Assembly: GCA_937139405.1 (NCBI GenBank)
Contig: CAKZPV010000051.1
Span: forward strand, 1 to 32,635
Length of the DNA stretch: 32,635 bases
Source of the DNA: an uncultured Nitrospirota bacterium
GTDB lineage: Bacteria; Nitrospirota; Nitrospiria; Nitrospirales; UBA8639
Reading direction: 5' to 3'
The notes beneath the pieces are model-generated. The model was not told the origin of the DNA, did no database searches, and was given only the letters and a program-made list of their open reading frames with translations. Positions 24,877-32,635 of this stretch are shown here, one piece after another (position 1 is the stretch's first letter; every line of letters starts with the position of its first letter). Position numbers and translations under genes: made by a program.

Positions 24877-24911
24877 AAAAAAAAACCCTTCTCAAGATCA
24901 CATGAGAAAGG
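24877..24911 (-). terminator. pyr attenuator terminator
   Basis: On the minus strand a 9-bp stem (5' arm 24903-24911, 3' arm 24886-24894, one G-U pair) with an 8-nt loop is followed by nine T (24877-24885). This is a textbook intrinsic terminator, 44 nt before pyrR. Its 5' arm also takes part in the competing antiterminator. Confidence 0.9.
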
Positions 24912-24966
24912 TCTGAAAGTTTTGGCCATTGAGAGGCCACTACCATAAGTTGCTCTCCTTACTCAC
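24902..24966 (-). promoter_or_regulatory. pyr antiterminator (alternative pairing)
   Basis: RNA GTGAGTAAGG (24957-24966) can pair with CCTTTCTCAT (24902-24911), giving 9 of 10 pairs (one G-U, one T-T mismatch). The first strand overlaps the 3' side of the PyrR hairpin and the second is the 5' arm of the terminator, so this helix excludes both. A small TGGCC/GGCCA hairpin (24923-24939) lies in the loop between them. Confidence 0.8.
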
Positions 24967-24980
24967 CTCACTGGATGAGT
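24961..24980 (-). promoter_or_regulatory. PyrR-binding hairpin (anti-antiterminator)
   Basis: The minus-strand RNA reads ACTCA-TCCAGTGAGG-TGAGT: a perfect 5-bp stem closes a loop that matches the PyrR recognition consensus UCCNGNGAGGY. CC and GG can form the short upper stem. UMP-bound PyrR would stabilise it, free the terminator and shut down the pyr genes. Confidence 0.88.
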
Positions 24981-25081
24981 TTTAAAGGTTTCTTCATCCT
25001 ATTCAGGACACATGTTCCTGTCAAGAGTTCGACTATAGGAAAAGGAGAGAAAAGCAATCTACCCGTAGGCTTCCGACATAA

Positions 25082-25153: not shown

Positions 25154-26548
25154 TCAAAGACAATATCTTCTCACCCATTCTATAGCGTCTTCCAAGCTTT
25201 GAATCTCTCCATTCAATTGTTCCTCAAATACGATTTGGAGAATTTCACCCATCTGTGGTCCCGGAGAAACCCCGAGCTCAAGCAAATGCCTTCCTAAGAG
25301 AAACGGCTCAGTACCTTTATTTTGAAGATTGAGACTATGGGCCACCTCTAACATCGCGGTCATGTTGAGTGGCATTTTTTTTGGTAATGGAGGACGTCCA
25401 CTATGGTCCGCTTCAACTAACCGACCGAGCATTTCAAGTGTTTCACCAGCAGCTGCCAACGATACTGACAATCGCCGTACATGCCGCAACGAATCTTTGA
25501 AGTCAACGTGCGTAAGATGGTAACGACATAATGCAATGACCCGCTCGACCGTTCCAAATGGCGCACCGATTCGAGCGAGAAAGGCTTGAAAAATCTCGAC
25601 AGTATCACAATGCCCACGAGACCGGATTCGGCCATCAATCGTTTCCGTCGTCGAGGGTTTCCCCAAATCATGACAAAGAGCAGCAAAAATCAAAACGACC
25701 CGCTCGTCTTTGGCTAGTCCGTCTCGTTCCGCAATTGCTGCAGCCTCATCCGTAACCAACAATGTATGCGTCCAAACATCGCCTTCCGGATGAAATTCTG
25801 GGTCTTGAGGACAATCAATCAAGGACTTCAGCTCAGGATAGACCCGAATCCACCCCGCTTGAAGAAGAAATTTCAATCCAGCTGAGGGTAGAATTGATTG
25901 GGACGCCCATTTGTACCATTCTCCCCAAATACGTTCGATAGGCAATGTGTGATATTCGGGCAATAAATCTTGCGACATCGCTAGTGTGTCAGGGGCTCCT
26001 CTCAGGGCATATCTTCCAGCAAATTGCATCCCTCGAAGCACACGCAATGGATCTTCTTTGAAACATTTCGTGGTATGTCGAAGAATCTTTTCCTCAAGAT
26101 CTATTAGCCCACCAAAAGGATCAAGTAATTCCTGGCTTTCTGAATCCCACGCCATGGCATTGATCGTAAAATCTCGACGACCAGCAGCTTCTTCAATAGT
26201 TATAAATGGATCTGAATACATATCAAACCCCTCATGTCCTAACCCTCTTTTTGACTCTCGTCGTGGGAGAGAAATATCAATCGGCACTCCCTTTAGTTTG
26301 ATCACTCCAAAAGCCTCTCCTACTAAATCGAGAGGAAAAGAACTTGAGAGAAGTTCAACGATCTGTTTGGGTGGAATACCATACGCCTCAATGTCAAAAT
26401 CTTCAGGTGTCAGACCCAGAAGCCAATCTCGAACACATCCACCGACAAAAAGAGCTCGTCCATTCGCGTTTCTTATCACACGCATAATCTCTATGTGTGC
26501 TGCTCGTACAATAGGATCAGCTATCAGAAACGTTATATGTTTTTTCAT
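25154..26548 (-). CDS. cca: tRNA CCA-adding / poly(A) polymerase family nucleotidyltransferase with HD domain
   Basis: This class II nucleotidyltransferase family adds or repairs the tRNA 3' CCA end; close relatives add only C, only A, or poly(A) tails. The head domain has FVGGCVRDWLLG (34-45) and the catalytic D50/D52 in EDFDIEAYG. Next come RRDFTINAMAW (124-134), the EDPLRVLRGMQFAGR helix (165-179) that contacts nucleotide and tRNA, and a C-terminal HD phosphohydrolase domain with H261 and H293/D294 (ALCHDLGKPST). The HD domain occurs in E. coli-type CCA enzymes and in others. Which bases it adds cannot be decided from sequence alone. It is monocistronic or lies upstream of the pyr leader; there is no clear terminator between them. 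Confidence 0.88.
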   Translation of the reverse strand: MKKHITFLIADPIVRAAHIEIMRVIRNANGRALFVGGCVRDWLLGLTPEDFDIEAYGIPPKQIVELLSSSFPLDLVGEAFGVIKLKGVPIDISLPRRESKRGLGHEGFDMYSDPFITIEEAAGRRDFTINAMAWDSESQELLDPFGGLIDLEEKILRHTTKCFKEDPLRVLRGMQFAGRYALRGAPDTLAMSQDLLPEYHTLPIERIWGEWYKWASQSILPSAGLKFLLQAGWIRVYPELKSLIDCPQDPEFHPEGDVWTHTLLVTDEAAAIAERDGLAKDERVVLIFAALCHDLGKPSTTETIDGRIRSRGHCDTVEIFQAFLARIGAPFGTVERVIALCRYHLTHVDFKDSLRHVRRLSVSLAAAGETLEMLGRLVEADHSGRPPLPKKMPLNMTAMLEVAHSLNLQNKGTEPFLLGRHLLELGVSPGPQMGEILQIVFEEQLNGEIQSLEDAIEWVRRYCL

Positions 26549-26856
26549 AATTTATACTTAAACAGCTCGTTGAGAATTTTTATATTTCGTGCCCTTTTAC
26601 ATTATTAATTTCTTGCAGATTTCATCTAGAATAAGTGAACAATTTGTACGTTCACTCCTTTTAATTATCAAATCTCCTAAGCCGCGCTTTCGAATAGCAC
26701 TGGAATTTAATATGGATTCCCAGTCATTTTGAGAAAATCTGTCAAAGAGCCAAAAGGGCAAAAACCCGGCTCCGTACAGGTCACTCGAGGCAAGTTTTTA
26801 TATATTGAATGCTAAGATGAACGCTTGGGACGTCTCAAAGGAAAGACGCCACAAGA

Positions 26857-26927
26857 GCTTATCAAAAGCAGACACTGCAATCTCCTATAGTTAAACTTTA
26901 GGAAGTTCTTCTTCTACCTTGATAAGC
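26857..26927. ncRNA. candidate structured RNA element, three-helix junction
   Basis: A perfect 9-bp inverted repeat (GCTTATCAA 26857-26865, TTGATAAGC 26919-26927) encloses two further hairpins: GCAG-ACA-CTGC (26868-26878) and CCTATAG-TTAAA-CTTTAGG (26884-26902, one mismatch). The downstream arm could instead pair with ACGCTT at 26821-26826, so two folds compete. The strand is undecided and no riboswitch family motif was recognised. Confidence 0.35.
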
Positions 26928-27375
26928 GTATACAATGCTTTCTTTTACAGATGTTATTTCATCCGTATTTTGCAACATGCAAGTGGTTGATTTCATAGAA
27001 AGTAGAAAACTGTGGCAAAAAGGATTGTTTTTACAACAAAACTATTCTTGTGAAAGAGGGGGAATGAGCTTGTCTCAACAGCGTCGGTCGCATGATCACA
27101 ATTAGCAAAAATCCTCTCCTGCTCCATTGTCACGTTGCTTGGAAGAACTTTTTACCAAAATACCAACGCACCTTGTTTTATTTAGGTTTACCTTATAAAC
27201 TAAAGAATTATGCCTCCTTTTTCCGATCGTATGTTTTTACACTCCAATCTTGTTCAAAAATTTTCACGAACTTTGTAGAGAAACTCTTTCAAAGGGTCGA
27301 TCGTCGTAATACCCTGTTCCCAGGTAACTCCTTCCAGGCTGTTATCATCCTAAAACCTGCTTGTCTCTGCTGGCC

Positions 27376-27394
27376 TTCCTCATGTTATGAGGAA
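27376..27394. promoter_or_regulatory. 8-bp inverted repeat upstream of malic enzyme gene
   Basis: TTCCTCAT and ATGAGGAA form a perfect 8-bp inverted repeat with a 3-nt centre, 47 nt before the ATG at 27442. It could be a repressor operator or an RNA hairpin in the leader. No T-run follows, so it is not a terminator. Confidence 0.4.
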
Positions 27395-27441
27395 ATGCTG
27401 CAAATGACTAGCGCTGTGACAATTTACGGAGATCAAAGATT

Positions 27442-28833
27442 ATGTCAGATCATAAGCCAATCGTATCTCGAACTGGAAAAACGGAATTCATCAGGATGAT
27501 CCGCTACAAGAGCGAAAATCACGTGGGTGTATTAGCAAAATTTATGACTGCCATTGCAGACGAAAGCGGAAGTGTGGGTGATGTCAAAACACGGAAGCTT
27601 GGAAAATTTTACATCTGGCGAGATGTCACTATTATTGCTAATGATCGAGAACACTTTGAGCGCATCCTCAAGGCCATTCGAGCATTGAAGAAGACTACGG
27701 TTGAGCAGATCATTGATGAAGTGCTTGAACGACATCAAGGTGGAAAGATTAAGATGGACATCAGCCACCCGATTGAGACGATCAACGATATGCGGGCAGT
27801 GTATACCCCAGGGGTGGCGGATGTGTGCCGCCTCATACAGAAGGATTCTGATGAAGCCTATAATTACACCTGGATTCACCAGACTGTTGCTCTCTTGACC
27901 AATGGAACCCGTACCCTAGGGTTAGGGGACATTGGTCCTGTGGCGGCCATGCCAGTGATGGAAGGGAAAGCCGCCCTCTTTAGAAAATTTACGGGCTGTA
28001 ATATGATCCCCATCCCTATCATCTCCAAAGACCCGCAGAAGTTTATTGATACCGCCATTCAGATCTCCTCAGGATTCGGGGCGATTCATTTGGAGGATAT
28101 CTCGGCCCCAGAATGCTTTGAAATAGAAGAAGCGTTGGTCAAACACCTAAATATTCCCGTCATGCATGATGACCAAGATGGGACCGCCGTTGTTTGTTTA
28201 GCTGCCGTCATCAATGCATGCCGAATCGTCAAAGGGGATCTCGAGAAAGTCCAGATTGGTCAGGTTGGGCTTGGTGCCGCCGGGAGCGCCATTGCCCGAC
28301 TGATTATGGCCTATACAAAACGTAACGTCTGGTGTTGTGACAACAATCCTGCTGCAATCGATCGTCTCGAAGAATTTCGTCAGAACAGGGCCACCTTAGA
28401 AGAGATCATGGAGCGTTGTGACGTCGTTATTTCCACGACGGGTGTTGAGGGCTTAATCGACCCGTCCATGGTGAAACCGCAACAAATTATCCTGGCGTTG
28501 ACCAATCCTGTTCCAGAAATCACCGAGGAGCAGGCCTTGAAAGCCGGAGCTGCCTTCTACTCGGATGGTCGCTACGTCAATAACCTGCTCGCCTATCCTG
28601 GCATTTTCAAAGGGGCCTTGGAAACCCGAGCAACGGGGATCAACGATCCTATGCTGCTTGCCGCCGTCCAGGCCATCGTCGATGCCACGCCACAAGGTGA
28701 AATTGTCCCCAGCCCACTGGACCCCACGGTTCATCGGGCTGTCACTAAGGCTGTCGCCAAGGCTGCTATGACGAGTGGTATCGCGCAAAAGGATTTGGAT
28801 GAGGAATATTTTGATATTGAAGAAAAGGTGTAA
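27442..28833 (+). CDS. ACT-domain malic enzyme (NAD(P)-dependent, decarboxylating)
   Basis: Malic enzyme converts malate to pyruvate and CO2 with reduction of NAD(P). The 463-residue protein begins with an ACT-like regulatory domain (about 16-90, starting [19 protein letters not shown]), which usually binds an amino acid or similar effector. The short prokaryotic malic enzyme core follows: Y121 in [11 protein letters not shown]176 in VMEGKAALF, metal ligands E218/D219 in [14 protein letters not shown] and D243/D244 in MHDDQDGTA, and the dinucleotide fold [15 protein letters not shown] (273-287). There is a GGAG ribosome site about 10 nt before the ATG. The cofactor cannot be told. Its codons are richer in G and C than those of nearby genes. 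It stands alone with a terminator 142 nt downstream. Confidence 0.93.
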
Positions 28834-28975
28834 GGAGCACCCACTTCCGATACACCTTGTAACACACAACAAATAAAGCGTTAACGTGCGAAACAATAAG
28901 AAACCCTTCACGATGAATAATCTTAATGATATTTAGTGATATAATAGTTCGCAGGTAATTGATTGGAAAAAATCT

Positions 28976-29000
28976 GCTGCCCTTTTGCGCAGCTCTTTTT
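28976..29000 (+). terminator. intrinsic terminator after malic enzyme gene
   Basis: GCTGC (28976-28980) and GCAGC (28989-28993) pair around an 8-nt loop and are followed by TCTTTTT. It lies 142 nt after the malic enzyme stop on the same strand, the only candidate for ending that transcript. Confidence 0.7.
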
Positions 29001-29127
29001 CTGCCAGGACCCCCCATACCAAGATATAGGCATACGAAAAAACATGGATTTATCAAACAAAACATCCTCTAATCAAGCGTATTTGTTGATGGTTTTCGAT
29101 TTTAAATTTATAAAAATATATAACAAA

Positions 29128-29154
29128 AAAAGAGCGCTTTTTAAACGCTCTTTT
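29128..29154. terminator. bidirectional A+T-flanked terminator
   Basis: AAAAGAGCG and CGCTCTTTT form a perfect 9-bp stem with a 9-nt loop, with A-rich and T-rich flanks, so it could work in both directions. Its base composition is that of the right-hand (Bacteroidota-like) block. The gene it would terminate is not present intact. Confidence 0.7.
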
Positions 29155-29202
29155 AACTCTAAAATTGGATTAATCTAACTAAAATTTTAATTGAGAGATA
29201 AA

Positions 29203-29226
29203 AAAGTCAGGTTTTACCCTGACTTT
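29203..29226. terminator. second A+T-flanked terminator
   Basis: AAAGTCAGG and CCTGACTTT form a perfect 9-bp stem with a 6-nt loop; A residues precede it and T residues are part of the closing stem. It lies about 75 nt after the previous one and could act on either strand. Confidence 0.65.
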
Positions 29227-29355
29227 GTCGATTAATAGCACTTAATCAATAAGTAAACCCCCTCGGTCACCTAATATTTTTATATTGTATTAAATAGTTA
29301 TCTAATTTCTGATTCAAATATCAACATTTTTCTACCTTAAATAATTGCTATTTGT

Positions 29356-29385
29356 ATAGTTGGTTGTGAAAATTGTATAGTTGGT
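29356..29385 (+). promoter_or_regulatory. LytTR-type direct repeat operator
   Basis: ATAGTTGGT occurs twice (29356-29364 and 29377-29385) with exactly 12 bp between, a 21-bp period; the identity extends upstream to TTGTATAGTTGGT. LytTR domains bind 9-bp direct repeats of the form [TA][AC][CA]GTTN[AG][TG] with this spacing; each copy fits 8 of 9 positions. A third, inverted copy (ATAGTTAGT on the minus strand, 29448-29456) lies 46 nt before the regulator start, so autoregulation is the likely role. Confidence 0.7.
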
Positions 29386-29502
29386 ATTTTAAATTTAATA
29401 AAACGTCATTCTATTTATTTAAACAAACTTAATACACATAAAACTTGACTAACTATACAAATTACGAGTCACTACATTTAATATATTATTATATTTGAAA
29501 TT

Positions 29503-30237
29503 ATGATTAAAGCAGTAATAGTTGATGATGAGCCAAAAGCTATCCAGAGTTTATCTTGGGAGCTTACCAACTTTAGTAATGAGGTTGAAATACTTGAAAC
29601 ATTTTCAAATCCTGAAGATGCTATTGTGTATTTAAACTCAAATACTCCCGATTGTTTGTTTTTAGATATACAAATGCCAACTATGGATGGTTTTCAATTT
29701 CTAAAAAAACTATCAAATAAAGAATTTCCTGTTGTAATTACTACTGCTTATGACGAGTATGCGATAAAAGCTTTGAAACATGAAGCTATAGATTATTTAT
29801 TAAAACCTATAGATTCTGACGATTTACAAGACACTATTCAGAAAATTAAAAAATTTAATTCTAGACTTATTAATTCTTCTAAAATTGAAGATGTTCTTAT
29901 TAGTTTTAATGAGAAATACGATAAAAAGAAAATCACGATTAATACCGACGGAAAATTAATTTTCTTAGATGTTGATGATATTTTGTTTGTAGAATCTGAT
30001 GGCAATTATAGCACTATAATAATGAACGATTCTCAAAAAATAGTCATTACAAAAAAGCTAAAAGAAGTAAACGCTATATTGCCAGAGCATCATTTTTTTA
30101 GAATACACAACTCCTACATTGTTAACCTAAATAATATTAAAGAATTTATTAAAAATGAAGGTTATGTTATTATGAAATCTAACCATAAAATTCCAGTGGC
30201 TAGACAACGAAAATCAGATTTTTTAGAGAAGCTTTAA
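29503..30237 (+). CDS. LytTR-family response regulator
   Basis: This is a two-component transcription regulator of the LytT/AlgR type. Residues 1-120 form a receiver domain with acidic D8/D9, phospho-acceptor D55 in LFLDIQMPTMDGF, T80 or T81 and K101 in LLKPID. Residues about 137-244 form a LytTR DNA-binding domain (TINTDGKLIFLDVDDILFVE, the segment FFRIHNSYIVNLNNI and the C-terminal VARQRKSDFLEKL). The 244-residue length is typical of Bacteroidota members. The gene is very A+T-rich and lacks a Shine-Dalgarno, as usual in Bacteroidota. The partner kinase begins 2 nt downstream. The direct repeats upstream suggest autoregulation; other targets are unknown. Confidence 0.93.
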   Translation: MIKAVIVDDEPKAIQSLSWELTNFSNEVEILETFSNPEDAIVYLNSNTPDCLFLDIQMPTMDGFQFLKKLSNKEFPVVITTAYDEYAIKALKHEAIDYLLKPIDSDDLQDTIQKIKKFNSRLINSSKIEDVLISFNEKYDKKKITINTDGKLIFLDVDDILFVESDGNYSTIIMNDSQKIVITKKLKEVNAILPEHHFFRIHNSYIVNLNNIKEFIKNEGYVIMKSNHKIPVARQRKSDFLEKL

Positions 30238-30239
30238 TA

Positions 30240-32198
30240 ATGCGTAATAACAAACCCAAAAATATAAAACAGATTATAGGCTTCATTTTTTTGATGAATC
30301 TTTTTACATCTATAAACTTACAAGCTCAGAATAGTATTGAAACTGATTTTGAAGCTGATTTAAAAACGCTTTTAGAGTCTAAACCAACGCCTTACAAATC
30401 AATTCATGATTTATTTTCAAAATATAACAGAGATAGCTTAAAAATTAAACAATTTGTTGAGGCTTCTAAAATGGCATCATATATAGAAGGCGAAAGTTAC
30501 GCCTTAAATGCATTGGGTGTTTTGTATAGAAATATCTCATTGTATCAACAATCGATATCTACTCATAAAATTGCTGAAGCTCTAGCCCAAAAAGCTAAAA
30601 ATTTAGAACTTCAGGTTATCAACCTTAATAATATTGGTGTGGCTTACCGAAGAATAGATTTGGTAAAACCAGCTCTAGATTTTCACACCAAAGCTCTAGA
30701 GATTGCGCAATCTATTAAAAATCCTTCTGATGCTTTAAAATACAATATTGCAGTTTCTCATAATAGTATGGGAAATATTTATTTGATTTTAGAGCAATAT
30801 GATTTGGCTAATAAGCAATTTCAAGAATCTTTAATTATCGAAAAAGCTTCTGATAACAAACTAGGATTGGCTATTAATTATCAAAATATTGGTTATGCTT
30901 TTGAAGCTCAAAATGAGTTGGATGAAGCTCTGAAAAACTACAACTTGTCTTTAGATTACAACAATCAAATAGACTCAGATTTAGGTCGTGTTATTTGTTT
31001 TAATAGTATTGGACAAGTTTATATTAAACAAAAAAAGCTAGGTGAAGCCAAAACTATTATTGAACAAGCTTTAGAAAAAGCCTTAATTATTGGCGATCAA
31101 TACTACATAGCATTATCTTATATTAATTTAGGTTGGGTGAAAAAAGAATTAAGGCTTTTTAAAAATGCTGAAACCAATTTAAAACAAGGATTGCATGTTG
31201 CTAAATCTTTTAGTTTACAATCTTCAGTTGTTGATGCTAGCAAACATCTATCAGACCTTTATTCAATTAAAGGAAACCATAAACTAGCCTTACAGTATTA
31301 TAAATCTTCAATTGAAATCAAAAAAACGATTAATAACGATCGTAATTTACGCTATGTAAACGATGTTATTATTCAATACGAAAACGAAGCTAAAAACAAT
31401 CAAATTGAAGCTTTGGCTAATGAAAACGAACTTGTAAAATCTAAACTAGAGCTTAATGAAAAAATGCTCTGGGGTGCTTTTTTCGCTTTAATAATTATTA
31501 TTGCAATTATTATTGCGCTTTACAGAAACAGGCAGTTACAACAAGAAAAGCAGATTCTTACTTTAGAGCAAGACATGTTGAGAAGCCAGATGAATCCGCA
31601 CTTTATTTTCAACTCATTAAATTCAATAAAGCTTTATTTTATTAATAATGAAAAGGAAAATGCTGTTTATTATCTAAATAAATTCTCTAAACTCATCCGT
31701 AAAATTTTGGTAGCTTCTTCTGAAAAAGAAATCTCTCTTGAAGATGAATTAGATACCATGAAGCTATACATGAATATTGAAAACATAAGATTTTCAAACG
31801 AAATAGACTTTAAAATTAATGTTGACGATGCGATTAATACTGCAAATACAAAGGTTCCTTCTTTAATGTTGCAGCCTTTTTTAGAAAATGCTTTGTGGCA
31901 TGGTTTATCTTCAAAAAAAGAAAACGATAAGAAGATTACGCTTAATGTTTTTAAAACCTTAGATGATTTTGTAACCATCTCTATTGAAGATAATGGTATT
32001 GGTAGAGAACAGTCTCAAAAAATTAATAAAGACAAACTTTTAAAACGTAAATCTGTTGGTATTGCTATTACAAAAGCACGACTTGCAAACTTCTCTAAAA
32101 GCTTCACCAACGATTACAAAATTGATATTGAAGATTTATATGATGTAAATAGAATTGCCACTGGCACAAAAGTTATTGTTAATATACCAGTGGCTTAA
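30240..32198 (+). CDS. TPR sensor histidine kinase, LytS/YehU (His_kinase) type
   Basis: This is the sensor partner of the upstream LytTR regulator (652 aa). An N-terminal signal or anchor segment (IIGFIFLMNLFTSINLQAQ, about 12-30) precedes a periplasmic or exposed region of about six TPR repeats (85-370; for example NLNNIGVAYRR, SHNSMGNIYLI, NYQNIGYAFEA, CFNSIGQVYIK). One transmembrane helix (about 410-427) and a short coiled coil (430-450) follow. H454 in MNPHFIFNSLNSIK is the phospho-acceptor. The ATPase domain has N550 in LQPFLENALWHGL and DNGIG (584-588). This layout is common in Flavobacteriia. The TPRs probably sense a protein partner; the signal is unknown. Confidence 0.93.
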   Translation: MRNNKPKNIKQIIGFIFLMNLFTSINLQAQNSIETDFEADLKTLLESKPTPYKSIHDLFSKYNRDSLKIKQFVEASKMASYIEGESYALNALGVLYRNISLYQQSISTHKIAEALAQKAKNLELQVINLNNIGVAYRRIDLVKPALDFHTKALEIAQSIKNPSDALKYNIAVSHNSMGNIYLILEQYDLANKQFQESLIIEKASDNKLGLAINYQNIGYAFEAQNELDEALKNYNLSLDYNNQIDSDLGRVICFNSIGQVYIKQKKLGEAKTIIEQALEKALIIGDQYYIALSYINLGWVKKELRLFKNAETNLKQGLHVAKSFSLQSSVVDASKHLSDLYSIKGNHKLALQYYKSSIEIKKTINNDRNLRYVNDVIIQYENEAKNNQIEALANENELVKSKLELNEKMLWGAFFALIIIIAIIIALYRNRQLQQEKQILTLEQDMLRSQMNPHFIFNSLNSIKLYFINNEKENAVYYLNKFSKLIRKILVASSEKEISLEDELDTMKLYMNIENIRFSNEIDFKINVDDAINTANTKVPSLMLQPFLENALWHGLSSKKENDKKITLNVFKTLDDFVTISIEDNGIGREQSQKINKDKLLKRKSVGIAITKARLANFSKSFTNDYKIDIEDLYDVNRIATGTKVIVNIPVA

Positions 32199-32208
32199 TT
32201 TCTCTCAA

Positions 32209-32635
32209 TTATTTTATAACAATCTTTTTGTTTATTGATTTTCCTTCGCTACTAATTTTCAAAATATAGATTCCCGTTTTTATATTATTTAAATTAAGTG
32301 TGTTTGTGTTTTTAAAAACAGCTACACTATTTCCTAATATGGAATACACCTCAATCTTATCAATTTTAGCAGTTGAATTAATATTTACAATTCCGTTCGT
32401 TGGGTTTGGATAAATTGATACGCTGCTTTCGATGATCTCATCAACACCCAAAGCAGTTTGCATACATTCCGAACCACGAATTATTTGACCTCTAACTTCA
32501 CCATTTGCATTTGCAGCAGTGTGAACATTGACATACATTTCGTTGTTTCTAAATTTCAATTCTGCTGCTGTGTTCATCGGCACTGCATCATCTCCAGTTA
32601 AATATCCGTACGCACCATCAGTCGTTCCTGTTGAA
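32209..32635 (-). CDS. secreted CHRD-domain protein with T9SS type A sorting tail (N-terminus outside window)
   Basis: The frame is open to the right edge, so only the C-terminal 141 residues are seen. A CHRD-type end (STGTTDGAYGYLTGDDAV, LKFRNNEMYVNVHTAANANG, GEVRGQI) is followed by a linker and a type IX secretion sorting domain: SVSIYPNPTNGIVNI, KIEVYSILGN, NLNNIKTGIYILKI and a C-terminal KKIVIK. T9SS exports such proteins through the outer membrane, cuts off the tail and often anchors the product at the cell surface. This machinery is restricted to Bacteroidota and close relatives. The gene converges on the histidine kinase with 10 nt between; its function is unknown. Confidence 0.88.
   Translation of the reverse strand, partial: STGTTDGAYGYLTGDDAVPMNTAAELKFRNNEMYVNVHTAANANGEVRGQIIRGSECMQTALGVDEIIESSVSIYPNPTNGIVNINSTAKIDKIEVYSILGNSVAVFKNTNTLNLNNIKTGIYILKISSEGKSINKKIVIK

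Follow-up and report, generated by a model that had tools for sequence, protein, structure and literature searches.

A flavobacterial tail on a Nitrospirota draft-genome contig, very probably a chimera of assembly or library preparation

Introduction

Misassembly into chimeric contigs is described by the authors of GUNC as a known and relatively rare source of error, and checks based on marker genes are less sensitive to contamination when it is non-redundant (PMC8201837). In chimeras of this type, fragments of two lineages share one contig and marker-gene estimates barely notice them. The DNA described here is of the same kind, and differs in that the position of the break is resolved to about 10 bp, in two separate contigs. 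The foreign DNA itself also has a close counterpart, the LytTR/TPR-kinase locus of Flavobacteriaceae (including Psychroserpens), which has the same gene order, the same hairpins, and the same convergent gene with a type IX secretion system (T9SS) tail. Compared with the Psychroserpens-type locus, the nearest kinase is only about 71% identical in amino acid sequence, and the source flavobacterium itself therefore lies outside the genomes compared.

The stretch examined (the window) is the entire contig C51 (32,635 bases), one of the 51 contigs of a 4.46-Mb draft genome of an uncultured Nitrospirota bacterium with a listed completeness of 98.2% and contamination of 1.2%. The left-hand bacterium is probably a nitrite-oxidiser, unrelated to the flavobacterium. 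The four families seen in the order of the left-hand bacterium fit the layout of Nitrospirales in PMC12342949, which is circumstantial, and the match to a chlorite-dismutase/HemQ-type protein is non-diagnostic for naming the left phylum.

Results

The features of C51, and the related feature of a second contig, C38, are collected in Table 1.

Table 1. Coordinates of features in the window (C51) and in contig C38
Feature	Contig	Position	Strand	Basis or comment
Host-genome part: lipid, pyrimidine, and malic-enzyme genes	C51	1..29066	.	Colinearity, tetranucleotide usage
Malic enzyme, N-terminal ACT-like region	C51	27442..28833	+	Final complete host gene left of the junction
Host-genus zwf leader with hairpin and zwf start	C51	28892..29065	+	Matches same-genus zwf upstream regions
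First zwf codons (MDLSNKTSSNQA in frame), truncated by the junction	C51	29044..29079	+	Alignments
Breakpoint interval	C51	29066..29079	.	Host homology to ~29066, flavobacterial homology from ~29074
Flavobacterial intergenic region with conserved blocks and two terminator-like hairpins	C51	29074..29502	+	Resembles the sequence preceding the LytTR gene in Psychroserpens and its relatives
LytTR response regulator	C51	29503..30237	+	Pfam; up to 88% amino acid identity to Psychroserpens
TPR sensor histidine kinase (His_kinase PF06580)	C51	30240..32198	+	Up to 71% amino acid identity, Psychroserpens-type genomes
CHRD-domain protein, 3' part, T9SS C-terminal sorting domain	C51	32209..32635	-	Pfam; truncated by the contig end
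Flavobacterial nqrC, nqrD, and start of nqrE (on contig L184, total length 3,760 bp)	C38	1..about 1703		Matches 8/8 flavobacterial genomes tested, 72-77%

The G+C content of C51 is about 46-49% to the left of the join and falls to 27-29% to its right, with no recovery up to the contig end. Across 2,548 one-kb windows drawn from the two ends of every contig (excluding C41 and part of C21, which read N), the assembly averaged 46.5% G+C (s.d. 4.3%); values below 34% were seen only in the C51 tail, in part of C38, and in a short stretch of C3, and the sole long run below 30% among these windows is the C51 tail. By tetranucleotide usage, positions 26,060-29,060 are host-like, with a score of -0.24 (chunks of the host assembly average -0.25), and positions 29,080-32,635 are flavobacterial, with a score of +0.27 (flavobacterial chunks average +0.24). 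The initial annotation had proposed an abrupt change of genome type on this contig, and this is borne out by the G+C drop, by the tetranucleotide scores, and by the homology on each side.

To the left of the join, the region from 9.1 to 25.0 kb is colinear with sister genomes of the same genus at 71-81% identity and is single-copy, its assembly containing no other close copy; we conclude from these two properties that this part of C51 is correctly binned. The PyrR element reported earlier was confirmed on the minus strand at 24,877-24,992. The malic-enzyme gene has 84% nucleotide identity to its counterpart in the sister genome G008 and 83% to a second copy on C34, where an intact zwf lies downstream of it on the same strand; a further copy is present on C32. 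These diverged second copies of malic enzyme and zwf on C34 could be read as two strains, and C51 could then be a mis-binned contig of a different organism, one with a natural mixture at this place in its genome. We give this explanation practically no weight, as the 9.1-25.0 kb region is single-copy and has its genes present and in the same order in the sisters, and the sisters are themselves multi-copy, with additional malic-enzyme genes in G008 and a zwf paralogue in G005 and G006. We note that the three host copies of the ACT-type malic enzyme (C51, C34, and C32) share 78-90% amino acid identity, that several zwf paralogues are present in the host genome (C34, C8, and C17), and that malic enzyme and zwf are adjacent on C51 and C34 and divergently arranged in G005 and G006.

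Immediately to the left of the junction, positions 28892-29065 align at 75-78% identity with the sequence that precedes zwf in G005 and G006, and positions 28935-29064 align at 74% with that of G015; the leader includes a conserved terminator-like hairpin, GCTGCCCTTTTGCGCAGC, followed by a run of T. In all three of these genomes the alignment runs on through the whole of zwf, whereas in C51, with its ATG at 29,044, it breaks off after about 8-12 codons. C34 likewise matches the zwf start of C51 over 29029-29066, and the open reading frame from that start continues in frame into flavobacterial sequence, to a stop at 29178. On the right-hand side, homology can be traced back to about 29,074 (a match to the flavobacterial locus L038 begins at 29074). 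Because the host match ends at about 29,066 and the flavobacterial match begins at about 29,074, we place the breakpoint at ~29,066-29,079. A junction had previously been assigned to 28,860-29,130, a range that starts too far to the left, with the A+T-rich stretch 28,892-29,065 being the zwf leader of the host; we rejected the possibility that 28,834-29,065 is already foreign because of its match to the zwf leader of the same genus. The remainder of zwf was not found in the assembly, in which the three zwf-like matches are complete genes elsewhere. A search of the junction for structured RNAs gave no Rfam match above threshold, and the hairpins at this site resemble terminators. Among viral contigs, nothing matched the exact 32-mer of the junction.

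To the right of the junction, the LytTR/TPR-kinase pair and the T9SS-tailed protein named in the initial annotation were recovered with Pfam, and its description of this side as Bacteroidota-like is correct and can be made more exact: the source is a member of Flavobacteriaceae close to Psychroserpens (identities of up to 71% for the kinase and up to 88% for the LytTR regulator). Among 80 related loci, every one with a name more precise than phylum or class belongs to Flavobacteriaceae or Flavobacteriales, with the best in Psychroserpens and its close kin. From about 29,114, the intergenic region (hairpins included), the LytTR gene, and the kinase gene form one block colinear with flavobacterial genomes at ~70-77% identity, and a convergent T9SS-tailed gene occupies the same downstream place in several of these relatives. 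A conserved block (GATTAATAGCATTTAATC, GTGAATCCCCACGATCAC) lies beside the two terminator-like hairpins at 29,120-29,280 and in its counterparts in loci L003-L016; the second conserved block differs in C51 but pairing is still possible. The block upstream of the LytTR/TPR-kinase pair has no match to an Rfam family; it could represent a small RNA not yet described, or a regulatory site.

The foreign DNA of C51 is flanked by host DNA on one side only and continues, with no return to host sequence, to the contig end, which falls within a flavobacterial gene. Some twenty end-to-end overlaps of exactly 77 bases are present among the other contig ends of the assembly, which shows that it was built from a k=77 de Bruijn graph, and the foreign end of C51 takes part in no such overlap. 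Separately, we observed that five contigs (C9, 43,210 bp; C35, 42,834 bp; C26, 17,911 bp; C23, 61,239 bp; and C25, 140,834 bp) have identical 77-base ends and are thus each circular in the assembly graph. C9 (primase and tail tape-measure genes) and C35 (head-tail connector and C5 methylase) resemble phage genomes, C26 carries a relaxase and is plasmid-like, and C23 and C25 have no Pfam match in the large open reading frames tested.

A one-sided piece of this kind could also arise by horizontal transfer, with flavobacterial DNA inserted into the host zwf and the far side of the insertion lying in an assembly gap. In favour of this, the join is clean and free of any run of N, and the intact zwf on C34 would make loss of the C51 copy tolerable. 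We nonetheless consider transfer very improbable, given that the rest of the interrupted zwf is missing from the assembly and that the foreign DNA keeps the intergenic hairpins, gene order, and composition of its donor. Neither an integrase, a transposase, nor an insertion sequence was found among the open reading frames of 28.8-32.6 kb, and no tRNA, in agreement with the earlier statement that no integrase or tRNA marks a transfer event here. There is also no sign of the event in relatives: searches of 12 of them, including 8 same-genus genomes, did not find the 3.5-kb foreign piece, and the T9SS sorting domain, which occurs once in the assembly, was above the cut-off in none of 40 relatives.

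A further argument against transfer is provided by an unrelated second join, on C38. From about position 1,690 onward C38 matches only the host genus, with a transposase-like fragment (a putative label, from reading of the translated sequence) followed by a universal-stress-protein (UspA) gene with 90% DNA identity to G008, and the point of fusion to the flavobacterial nqr genes is inside nqrE. At the join, the two parental sequences resemble each other over a stretch of about ten bases, which would permit joining through a short overlap but does not prove it. In the relatives checked, the LytTR/kinase and nqr loci are on different contigs (526,760 vs 337,271 bp in one, and 1,282,496 vs 300,976 bp in the other), and the C51 and C38 pieces are therefore not one transferred block. 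Two separate flavobacterial insertions with their far sides in assembly gaps, perhaps from recent uptake from a close partner in mixed culture, would leave the same picture, and we regard such a double insertion as very improbable. The A+T-rich stretch of C3 at about 313-315 kb was also considered as a further flavobacterial piece, but this was unsupported, the gene there being a long coiled-coil open reading frame. As an observation in its own right, C3 at about 312,600-315,400 (L199:16874-19585) carries a low-G+C pair, in which a small HNH-like protein is beside a long ATPase/coiled-coil protein; this is possibly a putative defence pair, named by eye.

Discussion

We are confident that C51 is a chimera produced during assembly or library preparation and not a biological feature. 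Its two parts are each colinear with a different and unrelated lineage, the foreign part is at the contig end, and the junction breaks a gene that is intact in both parental lineages, as is the case for zwf on C51 and for nqrE on C38. A mobile element or a transfer might be marked by an integrase, a tRNA target, or terminal repeats, or be bordered at either end by host DNA; here no integrase or tRNA was found, and host DNA borders one side only. A chimeric contig had been put forward as the simplest explanation, and it is supported by the truncation of zwf with loss of its remainder, by foreign DNA running to a dead contig end, by its absence from relatives, and by the same fault in C38. Both joins bring together two lineages inside a gene, with the flavobacterial piece at the outer end of the contig, and the occurrence of two such joins, independent of each other and to a single foreign lineage, argues for misassembly or for chimeric library molecules.

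Very probably, ~29.07 kb of C51 comes from the binned host genome and the other ~3.56 kb from a co-occurring marine Psychroserpens-like flavobacterium, with the false join interrupting zwf just after its start, at the point at which the host contig lost its true continuation. We infer that the assembler may have joined tips of the k=77 de Bruijn graph through a short overlap, or that chimeric molecules may have been present in the library; either way, the join would not have been made in the cell.

A genome with an estimated contamination of 1.2% can thus hold chimeras between distant lineages, and we advise trimming C51 after about position 29,070 and C38 before about position 1,700. Taken at face value, these contigs would lead to the host being wrongly assigned genes of a companion flavobacterium: those for a type IX secretion substrate, for a LytTR/TPR kinase system, and for a fragment of a Na+-translocating NADH dehydrogenase.
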